DNA of 64,000 nucleotides from contig CM044966.1 of NCBI GenBank assembly GCA_024516035.1, forward strand, positions 16,349,377 to 16,413,376. Direction: 5' to 3'. The position numbers were made by a program, and so were the translations under genes. The stretch is from Bactericera cockerelli. Its lineage: Eukaryota; Arthropoda; Insecta; Hemiptera; Triozidae. Below are positions 3,880 through 56,400 of the stretch, piece after piece. Under the pieces are notes generated by a model, which was given only the letters and a program-made list of their open reading frames with translations, had not been told where the DNA came from and did not search any database. Within the stretch, counting starts at the first letter, position 1. Each line of letters starts with the position of its first letter.

Positions 3880-6800
3880 CTGAAAAACGATATGATGGAA
3901 AATATAAATTAGTGAATGTTATTATTAATAAATTCTTAATTAAATAAGTAAATGTGTTTCTTTGTTTTATTAAATCACAGTTTTTAGTGGGTAGCGCAGA
4001 ATTATAGGACTTTTCCATATCTTTTAATATCCTAGTATCTTTAATATCTAATGATGGAAATTATGAACAGTATACCTCTATACCTAAACAAGAAAAATAA
4101 TAATGAATAACATAGATAAAATATGCACAGATGCAGTCCTAACTAAAGGGCGGGATTATTGCCTATGGCAATCTCTTCCACCCAACCCTTTTGTAAAGCA
4201 ATATTGGCACTCAAATTAATGGGCTAGGGCTTTCTTTGAAAGGGTTTATTATATATTTAATTACCTATCTGTTAGCATGAATATAAATAAGTTAAAAGTT
4301 ATCATATTTGTGTTAATCACTTTTGTTATCATATTTGTGTTAATCACTTTTGCGATGTCACAACTACTCAAAGTCGTTTTACTAAATTTTTGCTGAACTT
4401 GAGACTCGAAGTCCGCCGCCTTATCTATCAAGCTCGGTAATTTTTTTGTGAATGTTATTTTTTTTAAATTCTTTATAAATACGTAATTACATATATATAA
4501 TGAGGAAAAATTAAAATATAAAATTGGAAATAATTGTAATTATTGTTCATGCTACTCGCATATGATTATCTCATTAATTTCGCGAAGAAATTTCCCAGGC
4601 CAATTTAAAACGTGGCTAAAGAAGCATAGTTTTTAAAATAAATTACGGATATGATTTTTTTTACAAGCTACTTCCTTGTTACGCAAACCAGAGAAAACTG
4701 CTCACTGGATGCATACTTGCATAGGTACCTTGTTGTTTCCTAGTTACACCCGTATATATGAAAAAAAGTCAGGAGAGTCTAATTCGTCCAAAAATGGTAT
4801 CAGCTCGATGTCGAAAAAACCGACCGAAAACATTACTTTCTATCTTTATAGGTAATAGAAAGTAAAAAAAATCAAGACAAAATCGAGTCACACTTGACGA
4901 AGAACAAATTCAAGCTAAAGCCCCCCCCCCCCCCCCCCCACCAAAAAAAAAACTTACCGCAAATGATGTCCATGGCACAGCGCGTGATGAACGGATACAC
5001 ATCGAAAGCCTCGCCTTCGCTCTGATCCGCTAGTTTGTCTCCCAGTTTGTCCGTCCTGTCCGCTAACTTGTCCACTTGTCCGTTCAGTTTGTCCGCTTGT
5101 CCGTTCATTCGTTTGTCCGCAACTCCCTTCGACAGCGTGTCTGCTAGCTTGTCCACTTGTCCGTTCAGTTTGTCCCTCTTGTCCTGCTCGAGTTTGTCCG
5201 CCAGTTTGTCCACCAGAATCTGGCACTTCTCCACGAACACATCGACAAACATGTCTAGGATCTTGAAGTGAAATGTGGGGGTGATCATCTTACGGTGGGA
5301 ATGCCATTTGGCCCCTGGAACCAGAGGAAACTATTGTTAAGTGCCACATTATCAAATAGGTTTAAAGTTATAAGATAAGCCAAACTCGGTGGTCTCAAGT
5401 CGGAGTTTCAACCAATCTAAGGGTCAGCTGATAAAATCTAAGGGTCGGCTTGGATTTACTAATCCTGTTTCATAATAGGGTAAGGTTGCTATATTTGGGG
5501 AGGTTTCCTAATTTGGGGAGGCGGTGTTTCTCCTCAAGCAGATGCTGCTGCTTGTGGTTAATGTCAGAATTATAAATGTAAACAACTTCCATGTGATTCA
5601 CGATCATAATCTAGTTTAAATTAATTGCTCGAGAGAAAATATTTACAAAAATGTGATTTGTGCTCCTTCAAATTTTTTTTAAAAGTTAAAACTAGTGAAG
5701 TTTGGTCAACAAAAAGGTAAGAAAATTATATTTTTGCTTTAATAATCCATGTAAAAATAGTTTGTTCTTTCATATCTCAGCTCTGAAGTTTTCTTTTAAT
5801 TCTGTGTAAAAATAGAAAATTATTTTTGTTCTTGCATATCACTTTGCCCAATTTGGGGACCCAATTTGGCGGTTTCTTTTTCACTATGAATTTTTTGTAG
5901 AATCTAGAATCGTGGTTCCCAATTGGCCGTCCCTGTTCTAGGACCGATAGCTACAGGTATAACTCACCTGTGGATGTGAGAAGTCCAGTCCCGAGCCACG
6001 GATGCAGGAACTTATAGACGAGGCTCTTGGTGATGTGCTTGCTGCTGTTCAGGATGAGCTCCACGTGCTCCGGCCTCGTCAGATGGATGACAGCCACCGG
6101 GCCTCCCCACTCCCGGTAGATGGGCGAGTACTTGCTGGAGCGGGCCATCCAGGTCTTCATCAGCTCTGCGAGAGAATAGAATAGAATAGAAATAGTATAG
6201 AATAGAATAGAATATAGATGGGCGAGTACTTGCTGGAGCGCGCCATCCAGGTCTTCATTAGCTCTGCGAGAGAATAGAATAGAATAGAATAGAAGAGAAG
6301 AGAAGAGAAGAGAAGAGAAGAGAAGAGAAGAGAAGAGAAGAGAAGAGAAGAGAATAGAATAGAATATAGATGGGCGAGTACTTGCTGGAGCGGGCCATCC
6401 AGGTCTTCATCAGCTCTGCGAGAGAATAGAATAGAAGAGAAGAGAAGAGAAGAGAAGAGAAGAGAAGAGAAGAGAAGAGAAGAGAAGAGAAGAGAAGAGA
6501 AGAGAGAGAAGAGAAGAGAATAGAATAGAATATAGATGGGCGAGTACTTGCTGGAGCGGGCCATCCAGGTCTTCATCAGCTCTGCGAGAGAATAGAATAG
6601 AATAGAACAGAATATGAATAGAATAGAAAAATAGAATAGAATAGAATAGAATAGAATAGAATAGAATAGAAATAGTATAGAATAGAATAGAAATAGAATA
6701 GAATATAGATGGGCCTCCCCACTCCCGGTAGATGGGCGAGTACTTGCTGGAGCGCGCCATCCAGGTCTTCATCAGCTCTGCGAGAGAATAGAATAGAATA

Positions 6801-7561
6801 GAAATAGTATAGAATAGAATAGAATATAGATGGGCGAGTACTTGCTGGAGCGGGCCATCCAGGTCTTCATGAGCTCTGCGAGACAGGAGGGCACCAACAA
6901 TTAGGGGGGGTGTGTTAGGGGGGTTTGTGGGGGCAAGAATTAGGGGAGGTCGGTTAGGGGGGGGGGCAACAATAAAGGGGAGCTAGGTTGGGGGAGGGGC
7001 ACCAACAATCAGGGAAGGTAAGTGAGAAGCTCACTCCAGTGAGTATCCTGTCATAAAAAAAAATATGGTCGCCATTTTCACTCACGAATAATTGGTACAA
7101 ACAAGTAGATACCCTTATAGTGATAGAACAATACATGGTTATTAAAACTAGTTATGCCGACTTCCGTGGCTCAGTGGTTAAGAGCATTCGTTGCTGTCCC
7201 GGAGGTTGCGGGTTCGAATCCCGGCCGGAACAGAAAATTCTGACCGAGTTTTTCGTTTCCAGAATGGCATGGATGAAAATAGCATGAAAAGGTAAACTGC
7301 CCTGAAGTAATGCGAAAGCTGTTCCGGGGAACAACTACCTTCAAAAAAAAATAACTATAGTTCTTTTTTTTTACTATAGTTATACTCACGGTTTCTAGGC
7401 ACGGCATTGTCCAAGGCATTGCCGAGCAGAGGCAGGGCCGGAGGTCCGGGCAGCTTGTTGATGAGTTGAATAAACTGGAAGCGTCGCTTGAGGAACTTGA
7501 AGAGATATGAAGAGGTGATGAAGAGGAGGACGCAAGTGAGAAGAAGCGTGACCAGGTCCAT
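3683..7561 (-). CDS. CYP4-like cytochrome P450, N-terminal 308 codons, gene continues left
   Basis: The exons are 7390-7561, 5968-6165, 4958-5314 and 3683-3879; all introns are GT-AG. Junction phases agree (phase 1 at the first three; the last exon ends in phase 0), giving 924 coding bases. The protein starts with a hydrophobic ER anchor, then a proline-rich hinge ([14 protein letters not shown]) as in microsomal P450s. It also has the insect CYP4 features [18 protein letters not shown] and [12 protein letters not shown]. The product should be a heme monooxygenase at the ER membrane, but the oxygen-binding helix, ExxR and heme-cysteine loop are outside the window, so activity cannot be judged. 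An LTR element sits in the next intron. Oddities are the expanded repeat in exon 3 and the copies of the exon 2 edge. Confidence 0.9.
4060..4200 (-). mobile_element. SINE/LINE-tail family J
   Basis: The conserved block reads, on the minus strand, GGGTTGGGTGGAAGAGATTG then CAATAATCCCGCCCTTTAGT. The same block recurs at 14030, 25248, 41720, 48615, 50260 and 54786. Complete copies end in AATAAAG-type tails with AAT repeats. Confidence 0.6.
4300..4432 (-). mobile_element. tRNA-derived SINE, family F (degraded)
   Basis: The body (TTATCATATTTGTGTTAATC on the plus strand) and a decayed tRNA-like head match other family F copies at 13829, 15972, 35139 and 42750. The first part of the body is locally duplicated. 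Confidence 0.6.
4958..5314 (-). CDS. P450 exon 3 with expanded DKL repeat
   Basis: The exon runs from TTCCAG| to TTTGCG|GTAAGT. It begins [20 protein letters not shown] and ends [16 protein letters not shown]. Between these conserved blocks lie roughly 60 residues rich in degenerate DKLxxQ and DKLAD repeats, where CYP4 proteins normally have only a short linker. A 20-base poly-C run lies just after the donor at 4920-4939. Confidence 0.88.
5476..5864 (+). mobile_element. TIR element, truncated copy
   Basis: It is nearly identical to the left part of the element at 29040-29852, starting TAGGGTAAGGTTGCTATATT and breaking off after CCAATTTGGGGA. It lies in the intron between P450 exons 2 and 3. 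Confidence 0.75.
5968..6165 (-). CDS. P450 exon 2
   Basis: The exon runs from CTCGCAG|AGCTGATG to TCCACAG|GTGAGT. It encodes [20 protein letters not shown] and then [20 protein letters not shown]. This is the only complete copy; five further copies of its first 50-75 bases lie at 6216-6883. Confidence 0.9.
6178..6890 (-). repeat. Array of P450 exon 2 edge copies with GAATA/GAGAA microsatellite
   Basis: Five copies of the first bases of exon 2, each keeping the CTCGCAG-type acceptor (the outermost slightly changed), lie at 6216-6272, 6366-6422, 6533-6589, 6711-6786 and 6828-6883. They are separated by runs of AGAATA or AGAGA. On the gene strand those runs are pyrimidine tracts (TCTAT/TCTCT) just before the acceptor. 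The copy at 6711 is longer and includes bases coding PIYREWG. Confidence 0.92.
7158..7345 (+). mobile_element. tRNA-derived SINE, family C
   Basis: The tRNA-like head has a box A-like GTGGCTCAGTGGTTAAGAGC and box B-like GGTTCGAATCCCGGCC. The body ends GCTGTTCCGGGGAACAACTA. Other copies are at 28655, 30922 and 52567. Confidence 0.8.
7390..7561 (-). CDS. P450 exon 1 (start codon, membrane anchor)
   Basis: ATG at 7559-7561 is followed by a hydrophobic stretch ([18 protein letters not shown]), basic residues and the LPGPP hinge. The exon ends at AACC|GTGAGT in phase 1, and joining to exon 2 restores a Gln codon. Confidence 0.9.
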
Positions 7562-17150: not shown

Positions 17151-17159
17151 ATTTTATTT

Positions 17160-22048: not shown

Positions 22049-22117
22049 ATGTCTAACCCCTGTGTAGTGCCTGTCAAAAATAAAGACTCAGTTGGTGACA
22101 ACAGGTGGCTTAACCAG
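22049..22117 (+). CDS. Paf-AHalpha: PAFAH exon 1
   Basis: The ATG follows AACTCACG. The exon encodes 23 residues ending VGDNRWLNQ and stops at CAG|GTAAAT. The family has a GDGRWMSQH block at this point, and exon 2 begins with the matching His, so the junction is well supported. Confidence 0.9.
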
Positions 22118-31901: not shown

Positions 31902-32030
31902 GGTAATAGAAACTAAAAATCGTGATGGGGTTTAAAAAAAACTCGCTGTGTAACAAACGGGGTGTAAAAAAATCGTCGACAGTAAGACGCCCCATTTTAT
32001 TTATCGCCCCCCCTAAAAATCGTGTCAGTC
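31902..32030 (+). repeat. Repeat family K, copy 2, inside the array
   Basis: It matches 30780-30915 closely and is bounded by array units on both sides. Confidence 0.6.
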
Positions 32031-43300: not shown

Positions 43301-46300
43301 AGGTCACCGCGTCCTTTATAGAGGTCACAGCGTTCTGGGACCCAGTGATCTGCCTTGATGTATCCTTGTCTGAAATGAATTATTATAGAAATTAGAAATG
43401 ACTATGTGCTATTACTTGGAGACACTGCGTCCTTTGTAGAGGTCACAGCGTCCTTCATAGAGGTCACAGCGTTCTGGGACCCAACGCTCAACGCTTTACC
43501 AACGCTTAACAAATTTATGCGTCCAACTTTGAACAGCTGATGGCCCCTCTTTCAACAAATCCCGGCTTCTGATTGGTTCAATTTATTTGAATTTTTTGTT
43601 TACCTCATGCAGTGGCGGGTATCTAAACATCCTTAATTTTTACATCAGATACCATCTTATATTTCTACATAAAGAGTAGAAAATAAGGAAAGTAAAAGTG
43701 GAAGCAAAGAAAAAATTAACTGATAGGTAAGTATGAATAAAGTAAAAATATTATTTTGGAAGAATGAGGTAGTTTAGGTACCCAGTCTTTCGCGAGAGAA
43801 AAATTACTACACTTCGGCGCAGGTTTTGAAATTAGCTGATGGTCCCTCTAGTATAAACAGTATCAGTATAAACAGAAAAGTGAGAAGTTGTATTAGATGT
43901 ACATGAATATCAGAACATACCTGGACAGTTATTTCGAGCTTATTTTCTCTCATCAAAATATTATTTTACAGATACCTCTTGGACGCAAATCTTGATACAT
44001 CGGGTTCCCTCTATGTTCTATGATCTCAGTGCAAAAACGTCTATGAATTCCGCCCTAATTCACTTTGAATATACGTTTTTGTAATACCTCTGTGGCGCTA
44101 AGTCATGGATTGCGTACCGTGTAAGATATCGAAAACCGACGCTTAGCAATGACTTGTGATATAGAATTCTGATTCATCTACAATACTGATTCATGCACTG
44201 TTGGTCAAGTGGTTAAGGCGATAGTCTGTTGATCCAGGTAGCGTTGGGATCCGTCGGTTCTAATTTCACCCAGTGCATGCATTTTTTCCTCATTCATATG
44301 AGTTTGCGACCACACAATAATACTCCTCTGAGGGTTAGGTGGTAGAAAAAGCTTTGAACATTTACCTAGCTTGTTGTTTAGCTTGAAAAAAAGATTTTTT
44401 TTTATTATCAATTATTGTTATTTGAAAAATTGACCACATGATAATGGCATCAACGCGAATGGCAATATAATGGGAATCTTTAGTCCAGCTTGTGTACCTA
44501 ACCCCCCAAAAACACCACTTCGTCGTTAAAAAAAGAAGAACGCCCCACTCAATAGAATGATTATAATTAGCTAAAAATAAATGATATCAAATTGAGAACA
44601 CCTTTACCTCCTTTCATTCTATTTCTCTGCACTCCTCTCTGAATTTATTCCTCTTATGTTTATCTTCCTTTATCCTTTCTAGGGGTCATCCCAAACATGA
44701 TTTCTCTTTAAATTTACTTGTTGAACGGCAATAAAAAATGGCGGTCGGAGTATGATTTTTCTGAACTTATTTGATTTGAATCGAGAAAAATACACCGCGA
44801 CCGCCATTTTTTATTGCCGTTCAACAAGTAAATTTAAAGAGAAATCATGTTTGGGATGACCCCTAGAAAGGATAAAGGAAGATAAACATAAGAGGAATAA
44901 ATTCAGAGAGGAGTGCAGAGAAATAGAATGAAAGGAGGTAAAGGTGTTCTCAATTTGATATCATTTATTTTTAGCTAATTATAATCATTCTATTGAGTGG
45001 GGCGTTCTTCTTTTTTTAACCACGAAGTGGTGTTTTTGGGGGGATATCAGTTCTTTTTGTACGAAAATATAGGTTCATACACTACTGAAACTTTATAAAT
45101 AACAAAAGTAAATAAGCTGGGAAAATGTGAATGTACCAAGTTGTCTTATATTCCAATTTTTTTAAAGATATAGTTCTAGCAGTAGGTATTTAATTTTTCT
45201 AAGGTCAATATATATTTGGATCCCCGATTCGGCCCCCTGAGTCCCCAAAGTGAGTGAATAATATATAAATTTGCAATCAGCCTATCAAGACCTTTTCATT
45301 CTATACTCCACATGATTAGGTTTATCTTAGGAGGGACACTAAAACACCTGAATTTACAAATGTCAAAGACATTAATTTGTTATCACCTTATCAAGGTGAG
45401 GTAATGAGTTCTCTCCCGTTGACCTATTCTTACCCGAATTCTCTCCGGCTTGTTGCAGGGGTCACCACGAGTATCTCTCCCGGAAATAAGACCATGCTTT
45501 TTACATTAGGTATTTAAGAAAATGAAAACCGTAAAATTATCATTTTTATATAAGAATCGGCTTTTTATAAGGAAATCTTTAAAATCTCTAACTAATGAAA
45601 GACAATGCCTTAAGTGTATAGTAGAGTTAGGTAAGATACATAGAAGGCCATGCCTCAGGAATATATATAGTAGGGTTAGGGATAATACATAGAAGGCAAT
45701 GCCTCGAGTTTATAGTAGGGTTAGGTAAATACATAGAAGGCCATGCCTTAAGTCTTTATCAATGATGCCTATTAGGTGTTTTTATTATAAAATTTATGCA
45801 AGGCCTAAACTATGTAGGTATAAACTCAGGTAAAAATACAAGCGACGGGAGACAATTCGGTGTTGATAAAACCATGAGCGGGAGAGAGCTCGCGATACCT
45901 ACCTGACCAAAATTTGGGTCGGGAGAGAACTCGTTGGTGACGTCCCTTATCAATACCTCACGAGGTATGAGTGTACCCCGGGCATAATGGACAGATAAAA
46001 AAACTGGCTTCATGGGGATCGAACCCAAGTCATCGTACGTGCAAGCCTAGTATGGTACCCACTTGGCTAAGGTCACTACTTTGTCACAACTTTTAGTGAC
46101 TACCATCGACATTATGAGAGCTAATTCATCATATTTTATCTCCATCCAACCATGATTGTCCAAAATCAATCTCGTAATGCCACCACAGGTCATTGTCCAA
46201 TTCTACAACTACTACAATTTTCCTCGTGAGGGTAGTCATCAAATATAAAGAGGGTAGTCATGAAATATAAAGAGCGGAAAAACAGAACAACGTTAAGCCC

Positions 46301-49300
46301 AAATTGAAAAAAATAAAGCTAAAACTTTCGTCCCCGCCAGGATTCGAACCCGTGCTAACTGGGTGGCAGGTCGGGCACGCTACCAATAGACAAAGTTGTC
46401 TTCTTAAGAATTGGACAGAAAATGAACTAACTAATACTTGGAAACATTAAAATTTTGCAGAGAGAAGCGAGGTCATCTCGAATAATACATACTGGCCAAT
46501 ATCTGACCACTAAGCTAAGGATTCGAAGGTACCTACACGCCAAAGAAAATGAAAAGGCCACCAGGTGCCACCCAGTGGACCGGTTGAAGGAATAAAATCA
46601 ATAAATTTGGTATCTGCTCATCAAGATCTTTCATTTGATACCACTTAAGATTACTATTATCCTTCAATTCCCGATTTGGGCTCCCAAAACCCGGGCCGCC
46701 CAAATGGGCCGCCCGCTTATAATTTAGAATTTTTTTTTGGTCCGGGCTCATCTCCATTATATCTTGATCACTTTAGACACCTCACTTAATCTTCAGTGCC
46801 AAGTTAAAGACACGAAGTCGGGTCTCAAAGGATCCGTATGAAAAAAAAAAAAAACAGAAAAAAAAAAAAAAACAAAATTATGAATCTTTTCATGTCTTTC
46901 ACGATTGTTGGGGGGTCTCGAAAATAGGGTTCCCGTTGGCCTAGGAAGTCAAACAAAAAGTCAAATCAATTTATTTTTCAGCGTAGAGTCCATTTCCGCA
47001 ATAAAAATTGCAATTTTTGAAATTCATGTTGCACTTTTCGCTGGCTGAAAGTACATGAAATGCATGGGAACTATGTTTTGCGTAACCTTACACTCTGCCG
47101 GGCTGTCTCTTTCTTTGTATAGGCGTTCTTCACACCTCGGCCGAGGTGTTTGATGTAAATAAAATTTCTATGACTATCTACTAGCTGTCTCACCCGTGCT
47201 TCGCTACGGTTATTTCGGACCAGAAAATTCCGATATCTTGAAAATGGTAATAGATATGTATTTTAATTTTGATAATTTCTTGACTGTGTTCTGTCTATGG
47301 TTTAAAGGGGGTCAACTCACATGAAAATTTCAATATCTGTAACCGTTTGTATTTTATTATTGATAATTTCTTGACTGTGGTTTGACGGTGGTTTAGGGGG
47401 CGTCAACTCTCATGAAAAATGCCATATCTGTTATCGTTCGGGCTGTGGTATTGTAAACAGACAACCCCTAAGAGGACATAGTCAGCCAATCAGACATGCA
47501 CAGATTTGAGTTTTATAGATATAGATAATAAGGCCTGTCATAAATAAAAATACTGCACTTCAAAACGCAATGAACAAATATACAAAATCTAAAATATTTA
47601 ATAAATTATACCTATTTTTTACACAAAATAAAACTTGCTTTTGAACTGCTCAACAAAGAATTGACAACAGACATGATTCAAACAGTCTAGTCTTTTGGAG
47701 TAAAAAAATATACATTAAAAATGCATGTTACATGTTAATGTATAAATAATTATGAAGTTAATCGAACTCATGGTGCCACAATTATTCAAATTTACTTTAC
47801 TAAATCTTTACAAAACACTATCTTGAAAACATTTTCCCGACGAAAAATGGAAGCTATGTATTATATACCCCCCTCAGATCATTTTATTCAAGTAAAGCTC
47901 ATTTCCAAAATTTGTAACACACTCGTAGAAGGATGGTTTTTAGAGACACGCATTCAAATATTTCCAAAGCAAAGGAGAACCCAATATGTCACAATTTTAT
48001 TATTAAATGAAAATACAGAGGGTGAGGTAAAATACGATTAATATACAATTAATTGAAGATACAATGTTTTTTCTGGATAACCCACCACCAGAAGACTCTA
48101 AACTATTCTTACTGGAAGCCGCATCATTGTCCTTCCTATAGGACACCCCGGATCCGACATTGTTGCCACCACTGGACAGACCAGTGTCCTTGACAGCGGA
48201 TGAGCTCCTGTCCTTCCCAGATGGCGAACCAACGTCTTTGCTCGAAGACAAGTCACCTTGAGCGGACGACCCATCACTGATGCCGTTCCCAGAAAGACTG
48301 ATGGTCTTGCCTCCACTGTCCTTCAGTCCAGCGTCCGCGATCATTGAAGGATCGTTCACACCCGAACTCACACGATCGTCTTCGATCATGTTCGTCGGTT
48401 TTCGCGACGCTCCAGTGGCGTCGCTGAGTCTGACGGCGGGATCGAGAACAGTGTCGGCGCTCTTGACGGGGCGGGGGATCATCAGATCGCTCACCACCAG
48501 TTTGGGGTGGGGGGCGCCGCCGCCGCCCAATGAGGAGGGGGCGAGGAGTTCCGCGTCTGTGGGAGAAAGGCGATAAGTTAGGTATATGTAATTTTATATA
48601 AAACTAGGTATAAAACTAGGTATTATTTATTTAGAAACTCTTTATTAGCAGAACATAATATATACAGACAAACAATGGTAAAATTGAAATATAAATTTGA
48701 CAGTATTCATAATATAAACAAGAAAGAAATAAATAAAATATATACATATGTCCTAACTAAAGGGCGGGGTTATTGCCTATGGCAATCTCTTCCACCCAAC
48801 CCTTTACATACCTAACATTACCACATATACCTAACATTACTTTGGATTTCTAATATGAACCTAATAACGAAGGAGACGAGGATGATTGGATGGCATTAAA
48901 GTACAGCTGGCTGTTTCCGGACCAGCTCATGCTCGATGAGGTTAATTTGAGTAGCTGGTTTCCAGCGAATGGAGGGTAAACCCCCCTGTCAATATGACCT
49001 TAGCAGTTAAAAGAGAGACGTTAGTTACAGTTCTTCAAATATTTAATGTTAAAATTAGCTGGTTCAACATATGTATTATTTATAAGGCTGCAGCCAAGTT
49101 ACGGCCCAATGCATGGCCCTATAATTTATTTTTCTATTATTATTATTATCATTATTATTTAATACTTTTGTGACAAACTACATAATACATACTGCAATAC
49201 AGGACATGAAATGAAAATAACTCAATAGAATATGTGCACTGGTAGTTAAGTGGTTAACGCCCTAGTCTGTAATCCAGGAAGCGTAGGGATCCGATGGTTC

Positions 49301-52300
49301 GAATCCAATTCATGAATTTTTCCTCATTCATTTGAGTTTGTGACCACATAATAAGAAGATTCTGAGGCTTAGGTGGTAGAAAATGCTTTGAGCATTAACC
49401 TCGACTGGTGGTTACCTTCCACTAAAGAGTGTTATTATTATATTCTTTTAATTATCTTTTTGTTATTGTTCTAACTTACGTGTTAATTTCACAGAATTAG
49501 TTTCCAATATGTTAATTTCCAATAGTCCCAGTCCCGGGTGGTGTGAATAATCTTTTTATTTTTTATATCAGATACTTTCTGTTGGATACTTTCCACTAAA
49601 GAGTATTATTAAATATGTAAAGACGCAAGGGGCGAGGTTAAAGCCTGTGGCTTTCTCTTCCTAATCCTACTCTACACAATGAGGCATGGCATTATGATTA
49701 TTTTTCCTAACCCTACTCTACACAATGGGCATGGCCTTATGATTATTTTCCCTAACCCTACTCTACACAATGAGGCATGGCCTTATAATTATTTTTCCTA
49801 ACCCTACTCTACACAATGAGGCATTGCCGTCCATACCAGGGTTCCTGTCCACCTTGGTGAGTGTGAGCAGTGGAGGTGAGTGCTCCTCCTCCACCTCCTT
49901 CATTGAATGGAGGCGGAGCTGCGCCAGCTTGGCCAACTCGGGTTTGTACTTGTCTGAAATCCAAACAAATGGAGTGCACGATTAGTCTTTTCATTTCATC
50001 ATAGGGTGGCGTCATCGTGAATGATGGTAGCCAGACAGTGGAGGAATGACTCAGCACTTCTACCACTGTCTTTACAAGGAGGCTAATAATTGACAAGGAC
50101 CCCCAGAACCAAGAAAATGCTGGTCTACTCCCTGTTTATAGTCCCCCTGTTTAAGACTGTTAGTCTTTTATGATTATTAAATTCTCTCTTCTTTCTTTTT
50201 TTTAACATATAAAATCGGGTTTTGTATAAATGGACACGAAGTCCGTAAAATTAAAAAAAAAATCTTTATTATCAGGACATAAATATTTACAAACATAATG
50301 ATGAATATTAAAATACAAAATTAACAACAATATAAACAAGAAAAAGATAAACAACATTTATATTAATTTATACAGATGCACCAACTAAAAGGCATCTGTA
50401 TATATTTTATACAACCTGTGGGCGATCGGCCGTTGGGGGCAATTTGAGGGGGACAATAAAGCACCTCCACCACATATTTATTATGCTTCATTAGGTAAGA
50501 CAAAGAAAATAAAAATAAATAGATTGAAAAATGAAACAAGAACAAAAAGGAGAATAAAGCTAATGTCCTACCTAAAGGGCGAAGTTGTTGCCTGTGGCAA
50601 TCTCTTCCACCCAACCCTTAGAGAGAAAAGAAGAAAAAAACCAACATTGAGGAAGTTTATATCTTTTTGATTCATATGATTTTTCTTTACTTAGCAATCT
50701 ACCAAAGTTTAAATGTTTAAATCTACCAAAAAAATTATTTCTCTCAGTGAGCACCTGGATTGGTAATCCAAGTCCTCACCACGCTGGACTTTGCTTAACA
50801 TTAGTGATTTGATATCAGGTGAAAAGTGGTGTATGCCATCTCTGCTAGGTAATCTCTGATTATCTGGATGCAATATTATAGTTTTCCAGATTTTCTACCT
50901 TGGCTCAACGAGGGGTTGTTTTTAGTGGGTTCGCCAAATCCCATTCTCCCGATCTCATAGTTGGTAAGGTAAGGCCTTTCTCGATAGCTGGGACTTGGGG
51001 GTGTAGATACATAAATATCACTACCTATGTGTTTATACTCCGTGGTCCTTGTTCTTGGGTTCGGTTTTGTCTGCTATTTGCTTGGAAATTTTTTCCCCTC
51101 GTTAAAAAAAGGTAATCTCTGATATTTTTTTTATGTCGTAACTGTCGTATTAACATCTCTGATCTCTGACGGTAATAGGATAGGTCTTGTATTTCATAAT
51201 CGATTACCCTCACATCTAAAAAACGTCTAGCCAGACAACTGATAGACATACCACTTGTCACACACTTTGATGTTCTCAGAGACATTGATAACATAATTTT
51301 AATATTAGTTTTGAATACTCGTAATAATAATTGTAGGTAATTATAATCAGTATAATAGTCAAAAGATGCTCAGTTCAAAAGTTTGTCCCGGTAGCTCAGT
51401 GGTAAAGGCGGCACTCTGTGAATCCACAGATTCCAGAGGTCTTGGGTTCAAAACCCAGCCGGGACATGACAAGTTATTGTCCCATTTGGAATTTTTACCA
51501 CATAATTATATGTGTTGGGCTTGCTGCTGGAATAATGGGACTTTAATAGTTCTAATCGGGCAGTAATAATAAGCCGATATTATTCTTATTTAATTTTTTT
51601 TTTTGTGTCAAAAAGATGAGTGTTTCACAGCCGTTTTCATTTCGTAGCCATGAAACAGGAGCTACTGTAGACGCTTGTGGACTGTGTTGTAGTCTGCCCA
51701 TCCCGTAGTGTGCCTCCCCTGGTGAGAAGTGACACAATACTTCCCAATTAGGTGCTGGGTCAACACGAGCGCACCGGAAGGTATCCCTTACAAACAATAG
51801 TAACCAAATTAAGATTACAAATTTTTGTCGGCACGGGGGATCGAACCCGGGACCTTCCGCATGGCAAGCGAGTGCTTAACCACTGAGCTAATCGCGCGCT
51901 ATTAGCTAATAATAATTATTATTATAATTTCAAGATTAAATACCTACCTTTATGGTCCCCATGTCAAAAACCCCTGAGATAATCCTCGTATTCATGTCAA
52001 ACTGATTTCCAGTGACAGCTTTATCTTTACTTTTTAACACCAAGTTGATCGATAAAAAAAACCTCATCTATTACAGTATATTAAATTAGGCTGATAGTAC
52101 CTAGATGTCACCTGTTGTCAGTACCTGCGTTCTCAGTCAGTTCAAGAACCTTGAGAAAATAGATTATCAATCCGTCCCGGTAGCTCAGTGGTCAAGGCGA
52201 CTGACTGGTAATCCAGAGGTCGTGGATTCGAAACCCAGCTGGGACATGACAAGTTATCTTCCTATTTGAGATTGACCACATACTAATATGTATTGTATTG

Positions 52301-55300
52301 TATATTATTTGTATTGTATAATCATGATTTATAACAGGGCACTGTTCTCAATATTGTGACACTTTACACAGTAATATTCTGCTCATAAAAACTGTTGTCA
52401 AGCATCAGTTCTCAAATCACAACTACTCAAACTCGCTTTACTAAATCTTCGCTGAAACCGGGACTTGAACCACCGACCTCCAGGTTACCAGTCCGCCGTC
52501 TTATCAATCAAGCTACTGGGGTCCATTGAAGCTCAAATAAACTACACAGGTGTGAAACTAAGCAGCCGACCTCCGTGGCTCAGTGGTTAAGAACATTGGT
52601 TACTGACCCAGAGGTTGCGGGTTCGAATCCCGGCCGGAGCGGAAATTTCTGACCGAAATTTTCCGTTTCCGGAATGGCATGGATATAAAGGTAAAGTGCC
52701 CTGAAGTACTGCGAAAGCGGTTCCGGGGCACACTTACCTTTAAAAGAAAAAAAAAAGTGTGAAACAGGCTTCACAGGCCAGACCAAGACTGAAAACGTAG
52801 CTCAAATAAACTGTACAGGTGTGAAACAGGCCTCACTTAAACCAGACCAAGACTAGAAGCTAAGCTGAAATAAACTGTACAGGTGTGAAACAGGCCTCAC
52901 TTAAACCAGACTAAGACTGAAAACGTAGCTCAAATAAACTGCACAGGTGTGAAACAGGCCTCACTTAAACCAGACTAAGACTAGAAGCTAAGCTCAAATA
53001 AACTGTACAGGTGTGAAACAGGCCTCACTTAAACCAGACCAAGACTAGAAGCTAAGCTGAAATAAACTGTACAGGTGTGAAACAGGCCTCACTTAAACCA
53101 GACCAAGACTAGAAGCTAAGCTGAAATAACTGTACAGGTGTGAAACAGGCCTCACTTAAACCGGACCAAGACTAGAAACGTAGCTCAAATAAACTGTACA
53201 GGTGTGAAACAGGCCTCACTTAAACCAGACCAAGACTAGAAGCTAAGCTGAAATAACTGTACAGGTGTGAAACAGGCCTCACTTAAACCAGACTAAGACT
53301 AGAAGCTAAGCTGAAATAAACTGTACAGGTGTGAAACAGGCCTCACTTAAACCAGATCAAGGACACAGGTAAGTCTTGCGTCTGTCAGTAATTTACTAAT
53401 TTATACAATAGGTAAGGTGCAGTAGACTGTCTAGTTACTTTTACCTGTATAAAGTTACTATAGGTATAGATACTATAGATATTAGACTGTACTACTATGT
53501 AGAGAGGGAGAAACACTTAAATTTTATTATTTTAACGAACTGCTACAAATTGTAGTTGCCTTTCGGACACAGAATTAAAATCAATCATCCTAAGAGATTG
53601 TAATAAGTACTTGACGTTAAGAGATCCAAATGATCTACTACCTTGCTTAACTGAAAATGAAAGCGCAATCTTCACTTTTCTGACTAAAACTGGATTGATA
53701 ATGTTTTTTTTTTTTTTTTTAAGTGTATATAACATCACAATAAAAAATTCCGGAAATACCAGCCTCACGTGTTTGGAGGGAACACAATTTCTTTCGAAAA
53801 GTCTGCCGCAACCGGGGATCGAACCCGAGATCTCTGGACTACGGGCAGGAGTCTCAACCGTCATGCCACGGAGGCTCCCGACTACTATATTACATATACT
53901 CTTGTAAGGTGTTAGGTTGTTGTTGGCTTCATCTGGGGGGAGTGATGGTCTTCAGCCAAACTCAAGAGAAAAGTTGGATCGTTCTGAACCACATATTTTT
54001 ATGTGCGATCAACGATAAGATGTAAGGTCTGAGTCACCTGCTAATAATTAAGTAACACCGACAAGTCAAACCTTAATTTTGTGACAGATGATTTCAAGTT
54101 GAGGATATCCTGAATCTCAAGGTGATAGTCGAATTGTAAACCAAGTCATTTTTCAGTTTCGTTACAGAGTTGTCTGCAAAAATATGTACCTCAGTGGTCA
54201 ATGCGTCTGACTGGTTATTCAGAGGTTACGGGTTCAAAACCCAATCGGGACGTGACAAGTTATCCTCCCATTTGGGATTTTAACCACATATATACGTCTT
54301 GGGCTTAAAGGAGGACTCAAAAGTCCTCCTAATCGGGCAGTATAAATAAGGCGATATTATTATATTATATTAATATTAGATATCAAACACCTGTGCTGAG
54401 GAATGCAGAACTACCACTGAACTACCGGGTTGAATGGTTCTCTTAAATTTTGGGTATACGTGGTTCTCTTTGTGTAACTTAATTTCAGAAAGCCCTTTAA
54501 CTCTCAAATTCAATATCAGAAAACCCTCTCTCTCAAATTCCCCAAATATCTCTTTCAACTGCACTCTGATTGGGTTATTTGATCGAAATGGACAGTTTGA
54601 AGGGAGAATTTGGGATTTTGAGAGTGAGAGGGCTTTCTGGAGCGAGAGCCAGATCCTTATTCCAGAAACACTCTCCATCCTCATAATCTCCAAATCTCCC
54701 TTTCAACTGTCTCACAACGTACTCTGATTGGTTAATTTGAACGCAATAACCAATCAGAGTGCGATATGTGTGACGGTTGAAAGGAAGATTATGGTTGGGT
54801 GGAAGAGCTCAAGCAATTTGAGAATCCTGCCATTAAAGCCTTAAAAAAAAGTTTTGGGGATTATGAGAATGAGATTGCCTAAAGAGTTGGATGGAAAAGA
54901 TTGCCATAGGCAATAACCCCGCCTTTTAGTTAGGACATATGTTTTTATTTTCTATTCTTTTTCATTTTTATTGTATATTAAATTGTTTCCATTGTTAAAA
55001 TAACTATTTCTAAGTACATAATGTCCATTTATATCTAATAAAGTGTTGTATAATAATAATAATAGTGAGGGTGGTTTCTGGAATGAGGGCTGATAAACGG
55101 GAAGATCGGTTCTCTTACCCAGAAGCGTCTGTTCATTCTTGCGGGCGGCCATCTTGCCATGCGAGTCTGCGTCTCCCGTCTCAATGGAGTTACCGTCCAG
55201 CTCCTGTAGACTCCGCCCACTCAAGTCCAACCCCCCGGACGAGGCCCCGCCCCTCACCAGTTTCAACCGGATGGAGGGGGCGGCGGCGAAGGAATCATCG

Positions 55301-56377
55301 ATCGTGTGAACGGAGCTTGGAGAGAGCGCCGCGAGCAGAGACGACACGAGGACGATGTGAACGGGGCTTGGCCTGGAACAGAGGAAGAGAGGATGGTTAT
55401 GAAGTGGATAAAATGATGGCAGGGATAAAAGATGGCACTCTTACACTAAAAATCCCCAAATCTCGGTTTCAACCGTGAAATTTTGTTCAAACAACCGTAA
55501 GGCGCTCTCCAAGGGCTAAGTTATGAAAAAGGATTGGGTCGGGTTCTACGAAAAACACCTAACCTAAAAAACACCTGAAAAACACGAAAAACGTTAGTTC
55601 CAAAGGATTCGTCAAGATAGCGCCAGTAGAGTTTTTGCTTTCGCGAGAGCAAAACTCTACTGGCGCTATCTTGACGAATCCTTTGGAACTAACGTTTTTC
55701 GTGTTTCTCAGGTGTTTTTTAGGTTAGGTGTTTTTCGTAGAACCCGACCTTAAAGATAAGACAGACACGCCATTAAATTGGACTTTGAACCAATCACAGT
55801 GCAGTATAGCCTGAGTTGAGATTATCTGGCTTATCTTAATTTTAATTTTATTTTATAACGCGGACCTTACACTCAGAATTGAGAAATCAGCCTTTGAATC
55901 GTGATGTTCCATTAGAATAACCGATATTTGAGCAAAAATTTCATACAAGCACCTGTATGGTACTGTATACTTAGAAGAAGCATCACTGAATTCAGCAATG
56001 GTTGAAACTTGGAGCAGCAAACTTACCGGGTCATCTCGAATGTAGAGTTTGAAGAAAATTGTTCCACGTGGTGTCACCTACCTACCTTGTGTATGCAACC
56101 ATCGTGAAACACCCTGTAGATTAAGCATCACTGGATTCAACAAGATGGTTGAAACTTGGATCAGCAAGATGATTCAAACTTGGATCAGCAAACTTACCGG
56201 GTCATCTCGGATGTGGAGTTGTGAAGAACATTGTTCCACGTGGTGTCACCTACCTACCTCATGTATGCGACTATCGTGAAACATCCTGTAGATAAAGCAT
56301 CACTGGATTCAGCAAGATGGTTGAAACTTGGATCAGCAAGATGATTCAAACTTGGATCAGCAAACTTACCGGGTCAT
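32983..56377 (-). CDS. Type I membrane leucine-rich repeat protein, 784 aa, 11 exons
   Basis: Coding exons from the start: 56370-56377 (or its copies at 56198-56205 or 56027-56034), 55119-55372, 49837-49953, 48086-48556, 43093-43369, 42465-42612, 40334-40531, 39782-39960, 37048-37267, 33843-34024, 32983-33283. All junction phases match, giving 2,355 bases. The order is: signal peptide (core VHIVLVSSLLAAL); linker and Ser/Gly/Asp-rich region to about 283; KDAV repeats; LRRNT (CLVCDCKEATSLLSC); about 11 LRRs; LRRCT (NPWMCDCDNQWL...C...C); transmembrane helix (LLLILVLLFSLLALPLLI); and a 40-residue cytoplasmic tail without a TIR domain. The layout suggests a cell-surface adhesion or recognition receptor. 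I cannot name an orthologue. The end of exon 4 is uncertain by 3 bases (48086 or 48089). Confidence 0.88.
33460..33525 (+). mobile_element. SINE family A, 3' tail only
   Basis: GGTAGAAAATGTTTTGAGCA to CACTAAAGAGTGTTATTA, in LRR intron 10. Confidence 0.6.
33656..33746 (-). pseudogene. Partial copy of LRR exon 10 (3' part plus donor)
   Basis: It repeats the last about 85 bases of exon 10 and its donor, with several substitutions, and breaks off at the CDC codons. Confidence 0.85.
33843..34024 (-). CDS. LRR gene exon 10: last LRR and LRRCT
   Basis: It runs from CCCCAG|CTTGTA to CTCAA|GTGAGT. It encodes LVLSNNALQRLEG and DIRHNPWMCDCDNQWLVSSL. Two partial copies flank it. Confidence 0.92.
34099..34217 (-). 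pseudogene. Partial copy of LRR exon 10 (acceptor plus 5' part)
   Basis: It repeats the acceptor and first about 110 bases of exon 10 nearly exactly, ending in the NPWM codons. It keeps an AG acceptor, so it is a possible alternative splice target. Confidence 0.88.
34306..34550 (+). mobile_element. Helitron-like element, second copy
   Basis: It starts TCTTAATATATAAAT after an A. It shares CTGAAATTTGGTAGGTAGCT and CCATTGGCGAAAAAGGATTT with 27047-27287 and ends with the AGCGGGCGACAGCCTGC hairpin. The last bases have drifted (CTTG). Confidence 0.75.
34555..34857 (+). mobile_element. LINE 3' end (5' truncated)
   Basis: The plus strand encodes LLYQLDFHLKQFNSR and GEFSPLQRMQKLGNN, related to the LINE end at 23231-23670. 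It ends AAATGGGAATACATCCCGTC with a short A-run. Confidence 0.7.
34864..35095 (+). mobile_element. Single arm of a foldback element
   Basis: It matches the right arm and right flank of the palindrome at 44502-45043 (GAGGAGTGCAGAGA, GGTGTTCTTGATATCA, GTACGAAAATATAG) without the left arm. Confidence 0.7.
35139..35285 (-). mobile_element. tRNA-derived SINE, family F
   Basis: The minus-strand head has TAGCTTGATCCATAAATAAG and box B GGTTCAAGTCCAGG. The body ends AATACAAATATGATAA. Confidence 0.75.
35386..36117 (+). repeat. Interspersed repeat family L, copy 1
   Basis: About 730 bp. It shares long segments with 62625-63240 (ATTTTGAGATTTTATA, TCGGATTTTCTTAAATATCA, AGTTAGTGG with CAGGCGCATGGTCT). 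It has a (CAGA)n tract and ends in the near-palindrome ACTTCCGATTTCTAATATTA...GGAAGTAA. There is no coding capacity. Confidence 0.7.
36170..36390 (-). mobile_element. 5S-derived SINE, family G (degraded)
   Basis: Body fragments CAAACTAGCTACTCAAATTA and CAGCCTGAGTGGGGCCGGGA remain, and the head is decayed. Confidence 0.5.
36835..37012 (-). mobile_element. Family J-like LINE/SINE tail
   Basis: It matches 11395-11575 (ACAATAAATTATTAACAGAG). It begins about 35 bases after the exon 9 donor. Confidence 0.6.
37048..37267 (-). CDS. LRR gene exon 9
   Basis: It runs from TTTCTCAG|ATCG to GGAAAAG|GTGATA. It encodes LRRs with LHTLSLSYMPELVSL and ends WPPLEK, which joins exon 10 as LEKLVLSNNAL, a good LRR. 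An earlier possible donor (CAG|GTGTCC) would break the repeat, so I prefer this one. Confidence 0.85.
37517..38629 (+). mobile_element. 5'-truncated non-LTR retrotransposon with 337-codon ORF and poly(A)
   Basis: The ORF 37535-38548 begins CLPARLGGLGI, the end of a reverse transcriptase. It continues with a zinc-finger-like CDGCGAGDFNLNHAL, then [20 protein letters not shown] and a region around ARKAFFDTRITNADA and FVPLVVSCDG. I recall this C-terminal domain from metazoan RT proteins where it resembles a restriction-like endonuclease. A poly(A) run follows (38611-38629). There are no stops, so insertion may be recent. It landed in LRR intron 8 among the exon 8 edge copies. Confidence 0.8.
38704..38826 (-). 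pseudogene. Partial copy of LRR exon 8 (3' part plus donor), copy 1
   Basis: It repeats the last about 115 bases of exon 8 (LDLSFNQFHSVPEQLAQS... to PVIK) and the GTGAGTCTA donor, then switches to a GAATA-type repeat. Confidence 0.92.
39194..39313 (-). pseudogene. Partial copy of LRR exon 8 (3' part plus donor), copy 2
   Basis: It is the same segment as copy 1 and breaks off at the same exon base (GTGTGGAGGTAG on the plus strand). About 350 bp of purine-rich AGAATA/AAAGAA repeat follows, and between the copies the repeat is similar. Confidence 0.92.
39314..39665 (+). repeat. Purine-rich GAATA/GAAAA microsatellite
   Basis: Irregular AGAATA, AAAGAAAAG and GGAAGAAAAG units, also at 37380-37500 and 38827-38995. 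They are pyrimidine-rich on the LRR gene strand. Confidence 0.85.
39671..39768 (+). mobile_element. Family H element, flank only
   Basis: GGTAGCCAGAGTGGAGGAAT through CAAGTGCCCCCAAACCAATC, without the 38-bp units. Confidence 0.65.
39782..39960 (-). CDS. LRR gene exon 8
   Basis: It runs from TTCCCCAG|ATCCTA to ATTAA|GTGAGT. It encodes two to three LRRs (ILDLSGTGLTSLPNHLL, LHTLDLSFNQFHSVPEQL, LQVLNLNGNPIPVI). Confidence 0.93.
40040..40215 (+). mobile_element. Family J-like LINE/SINE tail
   Basis: It ends TGTCCTCCTAATAAAGCATA followed by ATAATAATAATA, as in other family J copies. Confidence 0.5.
40246..40312 (-). pseudogene. Copy of LRR exon 7 3' edge plus donor
   Basis: It repeats the last about 50 bases of exon 7 (CCCACCTCCATAGCTCTCTC on the gene strand) and the AAG|GTGAACC donor region, 74 bases further downstream. 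Confidence 0.88.
40334..40531 (-). CDS. LRR gene exon 7
   Basis: It runs from CCTCCACAG|GGCAAC to CTCAAG|GTGAAC. It encodes 66 residues with LKILNLSYNDFHSLNADL and LEELHVGNNPLGVID. Confidence 0.93.
40718..41245 (-). repeat. Array of LRR exon 7 acceptor copies, about 12 units of 41 bp
   Basis: Each unit reads on the gene strand GGCAACTACGCACC, then CTAACTCTTCTCTTCTATCC and TCCACAG, that is, exon start, pyrimidine tract and acceptor AG. One copy at 40845-40918 is longer and includes exon bases coding YEPLKSLKILNL. Confidence 0.92.
41570..41705. mobile_element. Short imperfect palindromic MITE
   Basis: AAACACTCTCTACTATTCAA pairs with the right end (GGAGAGTGGAGAGTGTTT), and CACTCTGATTGGTTACTTTG pairs across the centre with AAGCAATCAGAGTG. 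It is related to 54434-54790. Confidence 0.7.
41720..41895 (-). mobile_element. SINE/LINE-tail family J
   Basis: The plus strand reads TAGTATGCTTTATTAGAAGA and ends CTAAAGGGCGGGGTTATTGC, the family block in reverse. Confidence 0.65.
41925..42460 (+). repeat. Tandem array, about 32-bp unit, about 17 copies
   Basis: The unit GTTCATCTAGTTCAGTGGAA plus CAGTTCAGTACA recurs to within 5 bases of the exon 6 donor. Variants (CAATGG, GTGCAA, CATATAG) are shared by distant units, pointing to block duplication. Confidence 0.95.
42465..42612 (-). CDS. LRR gene exon 6
   Basis: It runs from TATTCCAG|GTTGG to TTCCAG|GTGAGC. It encodes LEQITRLCLSNNPIKVIED and LLTLDLSHTKLNSFVL. Confidence 0.93.
42750..42895 (+). 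mobile_element. tRNA-derived SINE, family F
   Basis: The head CCGACCTCAGTAGCTTGATC and box B GGTTCAAGTTCCAG are intact. The body ends ATTAATACGAATATGATAA. Confidence 0.8.
43093..43369 (-). CDS. LRR gene exon 5: KDAV repeats, LRRNT, first LRR
   Basis: It runs from TTTCAG|ACAAG to CCTCG|GTGAGT. Three KDAV-type heptads (SIKDAVT, STKDAVS, SRKDAVD) precede the cysteine cluster CLVCDCKEATSLLSC. The first LRR contains VCLSNNDIEKV. Confidence 0.92.
43412..43488 (-). pseudogene. Intronic copy of the exon 5 KDAV repeat
   Basis: GCGTCCTTTGTAGAGGTCAC and GCGTCCTTCATAGAGGTCAC repeat the exon 5 coding units upstream of the acceptor, followed by GTTCTGGGACCCA as in the exon. No acceptor is obvious directly next to the copy. 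Confidence 0.88.
44190..44385 (+). mobile_element. tRNA-derived SINE, family A (degraded)
   Basis: The head TGCACTGTTGGTCAAGTGGT is present and box B has drifted (GGTTCTAATTTCACCC). The body and tail are recognisable to about 44385. Confidence 0.75.
44502..45043. mobile_element. Near-perfect palindromic foldback element, 540 bp
   Basis: Arms of about 250 bp read inward from CCCCCCAAAAACACCACTTC and outward to GAAGTGGTGTTTTTGGGGGG. They meet at a spacer of about 45 bases containing GATTTGAATCGAG, and there is little divergence between arms. One arm recurs alone at 34864-35095. Confidence 0.92.
45590..45765 (+). repeat. Tandem repeat, about 52-bp unit, three copies
   Basis: Units contain TAGTAGGGTTAGG, ATACATAGAAGG and CCATGCCT. 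They are roughly the reverse complement of the 45-bp units at 49670-49826. Confidence 0.85.
45955..46085 (-). mobile_element. tRNA-derived SINE, family I (degraded)
   Basis: The minus strand has a box B-like TGGGTTCGATCCCCATG and the body GGTACACTCATACCTCGTGA. Confidence 0.6.
47181..47525 (-). mobile_element. Non-autonomous Helitron-like element
   Basis: On the minus strand it starts TCTATATCTATAAAACTC after an A and ends GGTGAGACAGCTAG before a T. That is the Helitron pattern of TC start, CTAG end and A/T insertion. The 3' segment CCGTAGCGAAGCACGGGTGA can form a hairpin. Confidence 0.8.
48086..48556 (-). CDS. LRR gene exon 4: low-complexity ectodomain
   Basis: It starts after CTCCCACAG. 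About 157 residues begin with a GGGG run and then repeats rich in S, G, K and D (LKDSGGK, SSSKDVGSPSGKDRSSS, SSGGNNVGSG). The donor is ambiguous between GGTG|GTGGGT (48086) and TCTG|GTGGTG (48089), which differ by one Gly codon. It is phase 1 at both ends, so it can be skipped without a frameshift. Confidence 0.82.
48615..48815 (-). mobile_element. SINE/LINE-tail family J
   Basis: The plus strand reads AAACTCTTTATTAGCAGAAC and then AAAGGGCGGGGTTATTGCCT. Confidence 0.7.
49233..49442 (+). mobile_element. tRNA-derived SINE, family A
   Basis: The head TGCACTGGTAGTTAAGTGGT and box B GGTTCGAATCCAATTC are present. The tail is complete. Confidence 0.78.
49670..49826 (+). repeat. Tandem repeat, about 45-bp unit, four copies, next to exon 3 donor
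   Basis: The unit CTAACCCTACTCTACACAAT plus GAGGCATGGCCTTATGATTA ends about 10 bases from the exon 3 donor. It is inverted relative to the related array in intron 4 (45590-45765). Confidence 0.9.
49837..49953 (-). CDS. LRR gene exon 3
   Basis: It runs from GATTTCAG|ACAAG to AACCCTG|GTATGG, phase 1 at both ends. It encodes KYKPELAKLAQLRLHSMKEV and a Glu-rich segment. It has no recognised domain and is supported by splice sites and phase only. Confidence 0.75.
49997..50152 (+). mobile_element. Family H element, about one repeat unit
   Basis: CATAGGGTGGCGTCATCGTG through GGACCCCCAGAACCAAGAAA, then one 38-bp unit. It begins about 44 bases upstream of the exon 3 acceptor on the gene strand. Confidence 0.8.
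50260..50622 (-). mobile_element. SINE/LINE-tail family J, two nested copies
   Basis: Two stretches with TTTATTATCAGGACATAAAT or TTTATTATGCTTCATTAGGT start points occur. The second ends AAAGGGCGAAGTTGTTGCCT. Confidence 0.55.
50745..50852 (-). mobile_element. 5S-derived SINE, family G (head only, degraded)
   Basis: The minus strand reads AGCAGAGATGGCATACACCA and GCAAAGTCCAGCGTGGTGAG, a decayed 5S-like head. Confidence 0.55.
51384..51585 (+). mobile_element. tRNA-derived SINE, family B
   Basis: The head TGTCCCGGTAGCTCAGTGGT, box B GGTTCAAAACCCAGCC and the complete tail are present. Confidence 0.82.
51612..51900 (-). mobile_element. tRNA-Gly-like SINE, family E (full)
   Basis: The minus-strand head reads GCGCGATTAGCTCAGTGGTT, AAGCACTCGCTTGCCATGCG (GCC anticodon position) and CCGGGTTCGATCCCCCGTGC. 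The body contains CACTTCTCACCAGGGGAGGC and CAGTAGCTCCTGTTTCATGG. Confidence 0.82.
52172..52300 (+). mobile_element. tRNA-derived SINE, family B variant
   Basis: The head TCCCGGTAGCTCAGTGGTCA differs in the anticodon arm (GACTGGTAATCC) from other family B copies. The body is truncated. Confidence 0.75.
52415..52525 (-). mobile_element. tRNA-derived SINE, family F
   Basis: The minus-strand head reads CCCCAGTAGCTTGATTGATA with box B GGTTCAAGTCCCGG. Confidence 0.75.
52567..52748 (+). mobile_element. tRNA-derived SINE, family C (full)
   Basis: The head CCGACCTCCGTGGCTCAGTG and box B GGGTTCGAATCCCGGCC are intact. The tail ends GGGGCACACTTACC. Confidence 0.83.
52750..53362 (+). repeat. Tandem array, about 62-bp unit, about ten copies
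   Basis: The unit AGGTGTGAAACAGGCCTCAC, TTAAACCAGACCAAGACTAG, AAGCTAAGCTGAAATAAACT occurs in two variants (GAAACGTAGCTC versus AGAAGCTAAGCTG) in mixed order. It lies in LRR intron 2. Confidence 0.95.
53745..53878 (-). mobile_element. tRNA-derived SINE, family D, head and start of body
   Basis: The minus strand reads AGCCTCCGTGGCATGACGGT, GATCTCGGGTTCGATCCCCG and CAAACACGTGAGGCTGG. Confidence 0.78.
54190..54368 (+). mobile_element. tRNA-derived SINE, family B variant, 5' truncated
   Basis: TCAGTGGTCAATGCGTCTGA, GGGTTCAAAACCCAATCGGG and tail GGCGATATTATTA. Confidence 0.75.
54434..54790. mobile_element. Imperfect inverted-repeat MITE
   Basis: CACTCTGATTGGGTTATTTG, CTCTGATTGGTTAATTTGAA and CAATAACCAATCAGAG recur in opposed orientations with pyrimidine-rich CTCTCAAATTC arms. 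Related to 41570-41705. Confidence 0.6.
54786..55062 (+). mobile_element. SINE/LINE-tail family J, with a duplicated start
   Basis: GGTTGGGTGGAAGAGCTCAA, then GTTGGATGGAAAAGATTGCC and CAATAACCCCGCCTTTTAGT. It ends ATCTAATAAAGTGTTGTATA with AAT repeats, close to the exon 2 donor. Confidence 0.65.
55119..55372 (-). CDS. LRR gene exon 2: rest of signal peptide and N-terminal linker
   Basis: It runs from GTTCCAG|GCCAAG to CTTCTGG|GTAAGA. It encodes PSPVHIVLVSSLLAALSPSS and then SIRLKLVRGGASSGGLDLSG, ending NEQTLL. It needs the MTR supplied by exon 1. Confidence 0.85.
55537..55750. mobile_element. Near-perfect palindrome, 210 bp
   Basis: Arms of about 100 bp (GGTTCTACGAAAAACACCTA versus TAGGTGTTTTTCGTAGAACC) meet at the hairpin tip GCTTTCGCGAGAGC. 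It lies in LRR intron 1. It looks like a small foldback MITE. Confidence 0.9.
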
Positions 56378-56400
56378 CTCGGATGTAGAGTGGTGGAGAG
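55985..56400 (-). repeat. Tandem repeat of about 170 bp containing LRR exon 1
   Basis: Units share CATCACTGGATTCA, GGTTGAAACTTGGATCAGCA and AACTTACCGGGTCATCTCGG on the plus strand, and two also share TTCCACGTGGTGTCACCTAC. A nested duplication of AGATGATTCAAACTTGGATC is present in two units. Confidence 0.92.
56027..56377 (-). CDS. LRR gene exon 1 (ATGACCCG), three tandem candidates
   Basis: The short coding start ATGACCCG|GTAAGT, preceded by TACATCCGAG or close variants, occurs at 56370-56377, 56198-56205 and 56027-56034. Each would supply M-T-R to exon 2 in frame. Which is used cannot be decided from sequence. Confidence 0.7.

Follow-up and report, generated by a model that had tools for sequence, protein, structure and literature searches.

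Why are the ends of exons, splice sites included, copied side by side in three unrelated genes of the psyllid Bactericera cockerelli? The question is raised by a stretch of 64,000 nucleotides (assembly GCA_024516035.1, contig CM044966.1, positions 16,349,377 to 16,413,376), hereafter called the window, for which a sequence-only reading had reported extra copies beside exon borders. The window is animal DNA, and the three gene models, which we built by eye and tested by script, comprise a CYP4-like P450 (minus strand, partial, four exons seen), PAFAH1B alpha (PAFAH; plus strand, complete, four exons), and an LRR membrane protein (minus strand, complete, 11 exons, 775 residues). Extra copies of the exon-intron junction, between 1 and 12 per border and 25 in total, accompany 8 of the 33 splice borders in these models. 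The arrays are probably minisatellites of the type known from amphioxus as mirages, produced by local tandem duplication of a unit that happens to lie across an exon edge.

All three models are in frame with GT-AG introns and contain 16 acceptors and 17 donors. The Pfam domains found were P450, GDSL lipase, and LRR. For each of the three proteins, the best named relatives come from psyllids, with identities of 66–75%: Diaphorina citri, Cacopsylla melanoneura, and Cyamophila willieti for LRR and PAFAH, and Diaphorina and Cacopsylla for P450. As the sequence-only reading had held, the genes are unrelated and lie on different strands.

Copied exon borders and their decoy splice sites

The copied borders are the acceptors of P450 exon 2, PAFAH exon 4, and LRR exons 7 and 10, together with the donors of LRR exons 1, 7, 8, and 10. 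They split evenly between acceptors (4/16) and donors (4/17), and six of the eight belong to the LRR gene, in which the stop-codon end is copied in addition to the splice borders. Every place at which copies had been claimed indeed holds them. The arrays are as follows, with limits from copy location unless another basis is given; the last four entries contain no splice junction.

6107..6878, minus strand: array at the P450 exon 2 acceptor (sequence reading and copy location)
26421..26607, plus strand: duplication at the PAFAH exon 4 acceptor, 96-bp unit, one extra copy
55998..56399, minus strand: array at the LRR exon 1 donor, 172-bp unit, two extra copies, decoy donors at 56198 and 56027
40710..41246, minus strand: array at the LRR exon 7 acceptor, 41-bp unit, 12 decoy acceptors
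40242..40382, minus strand: duplication at the LRR exon 7 donor, 73-bp unit, one extra copy, decoy donor at 40261
39186..39312, minus strand: first copy of the LRR exon 8 donor, 117 exonic bases plus the donor, decoy donor at 39196
38697..38823, minus strand: second copy of the LRR exon 8 donor, decoy donor at 38707
34098..34229, minus strand: copy of the LRR exon 10 acceptor (one extra), decoy acceptor at 34203, limits approximate
33654..33742, minus strand: copy of the LRR exon 10 donor (one extra), decoy donor at 33662, limits approximate
31091..33056, minus strand: many copies of the last codons of LRR exon 11, the stop codon, and the first 3' bases, downstream of the exon (sequence reading and repeat listing)
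43423..43472, minus strand: copy of the LRR exon 5 coding repeat in the upstream intron, not a junction copy (sequence reading)
49658–49828, minus strand: 46-bp array that starts about 8 bp past the LRR exon 3 donor, junction not included (repeat listing)
41916..42459, minus strand: 32-bp array adjoining the LRR exon 6 donor, junction not included (repeat listing)

The exonic part of each copy ranges from 14–15 bases at the LRR exon 7 acceptor, where one longer copy (40906) holds more of the exon, to more than 100 bases at the LRR exon 8 donor and the LRR exon 10 acceptor. The claim that the repeated unit spans the junction, and that most copies bear a usable-looking splice site, was confirmed: the AG or GT dinucleotide is kept in 23 of the 25 extra copies. 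AG is changed to AA in the PAFAH exon 4 decoy at 26480 and in one decoy of the LRR exon 7 acceptor array.

The P450 exon 2 array contains five extra copies, with first exon bases at 6875, 6777, 6581, 6415, and 6263, spaced by TTCTA/TTCTC pyrimidine filler. As judged by eye, the first copy in both this array and the LRR exon 7 array is flanked on its left by unrelated intron, and the last is joined to the body of the exon. Between the later copies lies pyrimidine filler (TTCTA or CTAACTCTTCTCTTCTA), which is missing at the flank of the first copy, as fits filler arising at the duplication joint. The joints in the P450 exon 2 array share a few bases, e.g., ATCTA/TTCTA, and the joint of the LRR exon 10 donor copy shares TGACTG; the filler at the LRR exon 8 and exon 10 copies includes transposon pieces. 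Short shared bases together with fillers look like the outcome of template switching or microhomology end joining, presumably followed by unequal exchange. TTCTA tracts were considered as a general cause and rejected, being present at P450 exon 2 and LRR exons 7 and 8 and missing at PAFAH exon 4 and LRR exons 1 and 10. Five Tandem Repeats Finder rows with a period of 5 (AGAAT/TTCTA) are all located in or next to the P450 exon 2 and LRR exon 7 arrays.

The decoy splice sites score like the true copy; the matrix used was derived from the true sites in the window itself, which are few and not an independent sample. In tests of splicing in silico, 24 of the 25 decoys were substituted for the true site, and every one led to a premature stop, so that selection must rely on the true copy. 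The suggestion that the decoys serve as alternative splice sites thus fared badly, as they would be poor ones. Decoys diverge from the true copy by 5.2% (63/1222 sites), from which 3.1 dinucleotide losses are expected, and 2 in 25 are seen. The loss is close to the neutral expectation and hence gives no sign of selection keeping or silencing the decoys. Each copy examined contains one junction, and in no case do the acceptor and the donor of an internal exon occur in a single copy. Within exons, we observed only in-frame repeats, namely the 21-bp units of LRR exon 5 and a minisatellite in P450 exon 3 (about 5066–5199, minus strand), which adds 57 residues in a conserved part of the protein; this insertion is absent in all five aligned relatives.

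Possible traces of similar copying were seen in other psyllids. In the tail of a C. melanoneura LRR protein (P0007, 430 residues), 26 residues are compatible with 27 codons of the protein's own exon 8 when these are read one frame off, compared with nine residues for the best of 100 shuffled tails. This suggests that part of exon 8 is present a second time, out of frame, in a transcript or a gene model from another genus. Two D. citri proteins (P0001 and P0002) differ by a 47-residue repeat and are otherwise identical at 669 of 685 aligned residues. Among psyllid relatives of the PAFAH protein, there was no clear sign of decoy-derived sequence, and a few relatives are shortened.

Exon borders against the local background

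How often would copies fall on exon borders in this window? In a per-event test, each duplicated family was counted once because an array can supply no more than one functional border (one copy in 13, for example). Duplicated units counted in this way make up 3.7–4.7% of the window, and 32 borders gave 7–8 matches against 1.2–1.5 expected (P = 0.00009–0.0009). Repeating the test with 33 borders at six identity settings yielded 8, 8, 7, 7, 5, and 3 matches against 1.55, 1.38, 1.35, 0.99, 0.79, and 0.76 expected (P = 0.0007, 0.0002, 0.0008, 0 of the shifts, 0.0009, and 0.04, respectively), an excess of about 4 to 7 times. The LRR gene alone gave matches at 2–6 of its 20 borders (P 0.0003–0.08), and the enrichment of edge copies is carried mainly by this gene.

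Among 42 local duplication families, eight touch an exon border (one merely abuts it, and one is the stop), all of which belong to the 23 families with less than half their length in dispersed repeats. For the gradient around exon edges, we masked the dispersed repeats detected in the window, which cover 35% of its length, and assigned each family to the member nearest an exon. The duplicated fraction then amounts to 23.7% on the exonic side and 18.8% on the intronic side in the 20 bases at the edges, decreasing to 6.0% at 60–150 bases, 2.7–3.3% at 150–2500 bases, and 1.0% beyond 2.5 kb.

Likeness to known duplications and origin of the arrays

Mirages are minisatellites spanning exon-intron boundaries in amphioxus, e.g., in the globin genes BflGb6 and BflGb9 (PMC3087553). 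There, the units of 10–160 bp, similar in size to those described here, span the boundary on either the acceptor or the donor side, AG or GT is kept in most copies and lost in some, and several unrelated genes are affected with the normal gene model unchanged. As far as genomic sequence can tell, the psyllid arrays match mirages in the boundary-spanning unit (8/33), in its occurrence on both sides (4/16 acceptors and 4/17 donors), and in the mostly retained splice signal (23/25). They differ in residing in an insect, in affecting eight boundaries in three neighbouring genes as well as a stop-codon end, and in the pyrimidine filler between copies. No boundary-spanning minisatellites in insects were reported in the open-licence literature searched, which is weak evidence of absence. 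Mirages were known from amphioxus; the window probably shows them in an insect, at unusual density.

The interpretation given in the sequence-only reading is supported in part. It had placed the arrays close to intron gain by tandem duplication, but no intron gain is seen, and the amphioxus mirage is the closer match. Intron gains from exonic tandem duplications (the Rogers model) have been described in Drosophila (PMC2891723), and the RdRp gene of potato gained an intron via a duplication crossing an acceptor (PMC4974935). What these cases have in common with the arrays here is that a segment bearing splice signals was duplicated in tandem; the potato unit also crosses the intron-exon boundary. 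In contrast, the window contains no AGGT-bearing, purely exonic unit turned intron; its units span existing junctions, and its gene models need no new intron at a duplicated segment. Tandem exon duplication with mutually exclusive exons (PMC9013439) likewise leaves local copies of exon sequence beside an exon, whereas the copies here are partial, with one junction each rather than two splice sites around an open exon, and all 24 tested decoys lead to a stop.

If the arrays are mirage-type minisatellites, a template-switching or end-joining error would copy 25–130 bases of intron end and exon end, often leaving a short filler, and unequal exchange or slippage would then multiply the unit. Such events could be tolerated because the splice site is preserved in the copy attached to the exon, with the remaining copies landing in the intron. 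By exon definition, the spliceosome would normally pick the exon-joined copy, which lies closest to the partner site at the other end of the exon; the models that use this copy are open and match the orthologues. Inside exons, a duplication would survive only if the frame is kept. The copies would subsequently drift neutrally. The extra copies appear to be tolerated by-products with a cost in occasional mis-splicing, neither a regulatory device nor introns being born.

Several points weigh against interpreting the arrays as such. Sliding 32 borders base by base gave 7–8 matches against about 4–5 expected (P = 0.06–0.16), with about 14% of window positions having a local copy. Exact-match copies, the strictest of the six settings, reached only P = 0.04, and P450 and PAFAH alone gave matches at 1–2 of 13 borders (P 0.06–0.27, not significant). 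With a random family member and no masking, the duplicated fraction is 6–10% near edges against about 4–5% elsewhere. We infer from the sequence which copies are spliced, and likewise that exon definition chooses among them; no copy number polymorphism was observed in the species, of which one haplotype was looked at. The per-base result would fit a minisatellite-rich genome in which some arrays fell on exon edges by chance and were noticed as the reader looked there, and the window was indeed chosen by that reader. We regard chance as unlikely, as the per-base test takes all array copies as background, though one alone can be the functional border, and is for this reason judged too conservative, while the per-event P is below 0.001 in most settings. 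Exon edges as true mutational hot spots, at which an edge feature such as polypyrimidine or triplex-forming tracts, splicing-coupled R-loops, or exon-bound chromatin marks triggers breaks or template switches, are possible though somewhat doubtful. They would account for the per-event excess, the gradient dropping within 60–150 bp of the edge, the location of all period-5 rows at two arrays, and the arrays abutting the LRR exon 3 and exon 6 donors without containing them. However, selection on its partner lets a copy be recognised for up to twice the lifetime of a neutral pair, and this, together with unmasked young transposons diluting the background, could explain most of the excess. Moreover, six of the eight events lie in one gene, and the arrays at PAFAH exon 4 and LRR exons 1 and 10 have no TTCTA tract.

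It is very unlikely that the decoys are regulated alternative or poison splice sites tuning expression. In favour are their retained AG/GT and true-like scores on the window-derived matrix; their premature stops are what poison sites would give, and P0007 suggests that copies reach mRNA in another psyllid. Nevertheless, the dinucleotides are lost at the neutral rate, one array sits at a stop codon, a position with no bearing on splicing, and P0007 may be an assembly product. Haplotype misassembly could have made or inflated the arrays, given that nearly identical units are hard to assemble and an amphioxus mirage was misassembled in the draft genome (PMC3087553). We find this highly improbable, considering the divergence among copies, the varying filler lengths, the transposons inserted inside arrays, and the distribution of events over eight separate places in three genes. 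Just as improbable is intron gain under way, by the Rogers model or of the potato RdRp type: even though the acceptor arrays share the geometry of the potato case (PMC4974935), each array can fit wholly within an existing intron, and no tested decoy yields an open frame.

Gene models, neighbouring elements, and implications

The exons are listed below, all from in-frame models, with further support in brackets.

7390..7561, minus strand: P450 exon 1, from ATG to donor (Pfam p450; orthologues)
5968..6165, minus strand: P450 exon 2, with the acceptor at 6165 as the copied junction (copy location)
4958..5314, minus strand: P450 exon 3, containing the in-frame coding minisatellite (relatives)
3683..3879, minus strand: P450 exon 4, the last exon seen; the gene goes on or is cut off
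22049..22117, plus strand: PAFAH exon 1 (orthologues)
24028..24234, plus strand: PAFAH exon 2
24908..25030, plus strand: PAFAH exon 3
26576..26845, plus strand: PAFAH exon 4, with stop
56370..56377, minus strand: LRR exon 1, coding part ATGACCCG, donor copied (copy location)
55119..55372, minus strand: LRR exon 2
49837..49953, minus strand: LRR exon 3
48113..48556, minus strand: LRR exon 4 (orthologues)
43093..43369, minus strand: LRR exon 5, with the 21-bp in-frame coding repeat (repeat listing)
42465..42612, minus strand: LRR exon 6
40334..40531, minus strand: LRR exon 7, both borders copied (copy location)
39782..39960, minus strand: LRR exon 8, donor copied (copy location)
37048..37267, minus strand: LRR exon 9
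33843..34024, minus strand: LRR exon 10, acceptor and donor each copied, in separate events (copy location)
32983..33283, minus strand: LRR exon 11, with stop codon

The numbering of 11 LRR exons by the sequence-only reading was upheld, exon 4 being internal in the psyllid orthologues. Its donor, TCCA|GTAAGA, was placed from the frame and the orthologues. The idea that exon 4 might be an alternative last exon, coding for a tail like a lipid anchor, was dropped, as the exon is internal in Diaphorina and Cacopsylla. With the donor unused, the exon is open to a stop at 48003 (48003–48113, minus strand) with a hydrophobic tail, and read-through would yield a short protein form without the LRR part. 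The LRR introns also contain two long, nearly perfect inverted repeats (foldback elements; 44480–45060 and 55540–55760). Between LRR exons 8 and 9 lies a 347-codon open frame resembling a retroelement end (37505–38548, plus strand), and beside it, at about 37512, a further stretch like the exon 8 donor with a TTCTA tract. In the PAFAH gene, the motif TTTTTTGCTCCA(A/C)TTT occurs at 23988, 26429, and 26522 (plus strand), upstream of the exon 2 and exon 4 acceptors; it is shared though only exon 4 is duplicated and is perhaps a dispersed repeat.

Elsewhere, a long open frame at 75–2951 (minus strand) appears by eye to be a retroelement gag, with a SAP-like start and zinc knuckles, fused directly with an integrase and lacking a reverse transcriptase in between. 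A 38-bp unit (CTGGTCTACTCCCTGTTTATAGTCCCCCAGCCAGACTG and its complement) is repeated 2 to 10 times in each of four arrays, beside the same dispersed repeat:

24259–24346: 38-bp unit array
30664–30774: 38-bp unit array
57753–58137: 38-bp unit array
63604–63817: 38-bp unit array

A 19-base pattern of a dispersed repeat had no match in viral_contigs and matched one stretch in a Saprospiraceae metagenome-assembled genome (L001).

A genome-wide mutational bias of psyllids that duplicates exon edges far above the local intron rate, leaving a large share of splice sites beside near-perfect decoys, is conceivable but quite doubtful. If the density of 8 in 33 holds elsewhere, gene predictors and short-read assemblies of psyllids, which include crop pests and vectors, will often misplace exon ends. 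Psyllids would then offer an insect system of thousands of genes with near-identical competing splice sites at known distances, in which exon definition versus scanning, as well as the first step of duplication-driven intron gain, would be readable from ordinary RNA-seq and long reads. A true genome-wide edge bias would amount to a natural saturation experiment on how the spliceosome chooses the right copy and would keep supplying material from which alternative splice sites and new introns could arise.

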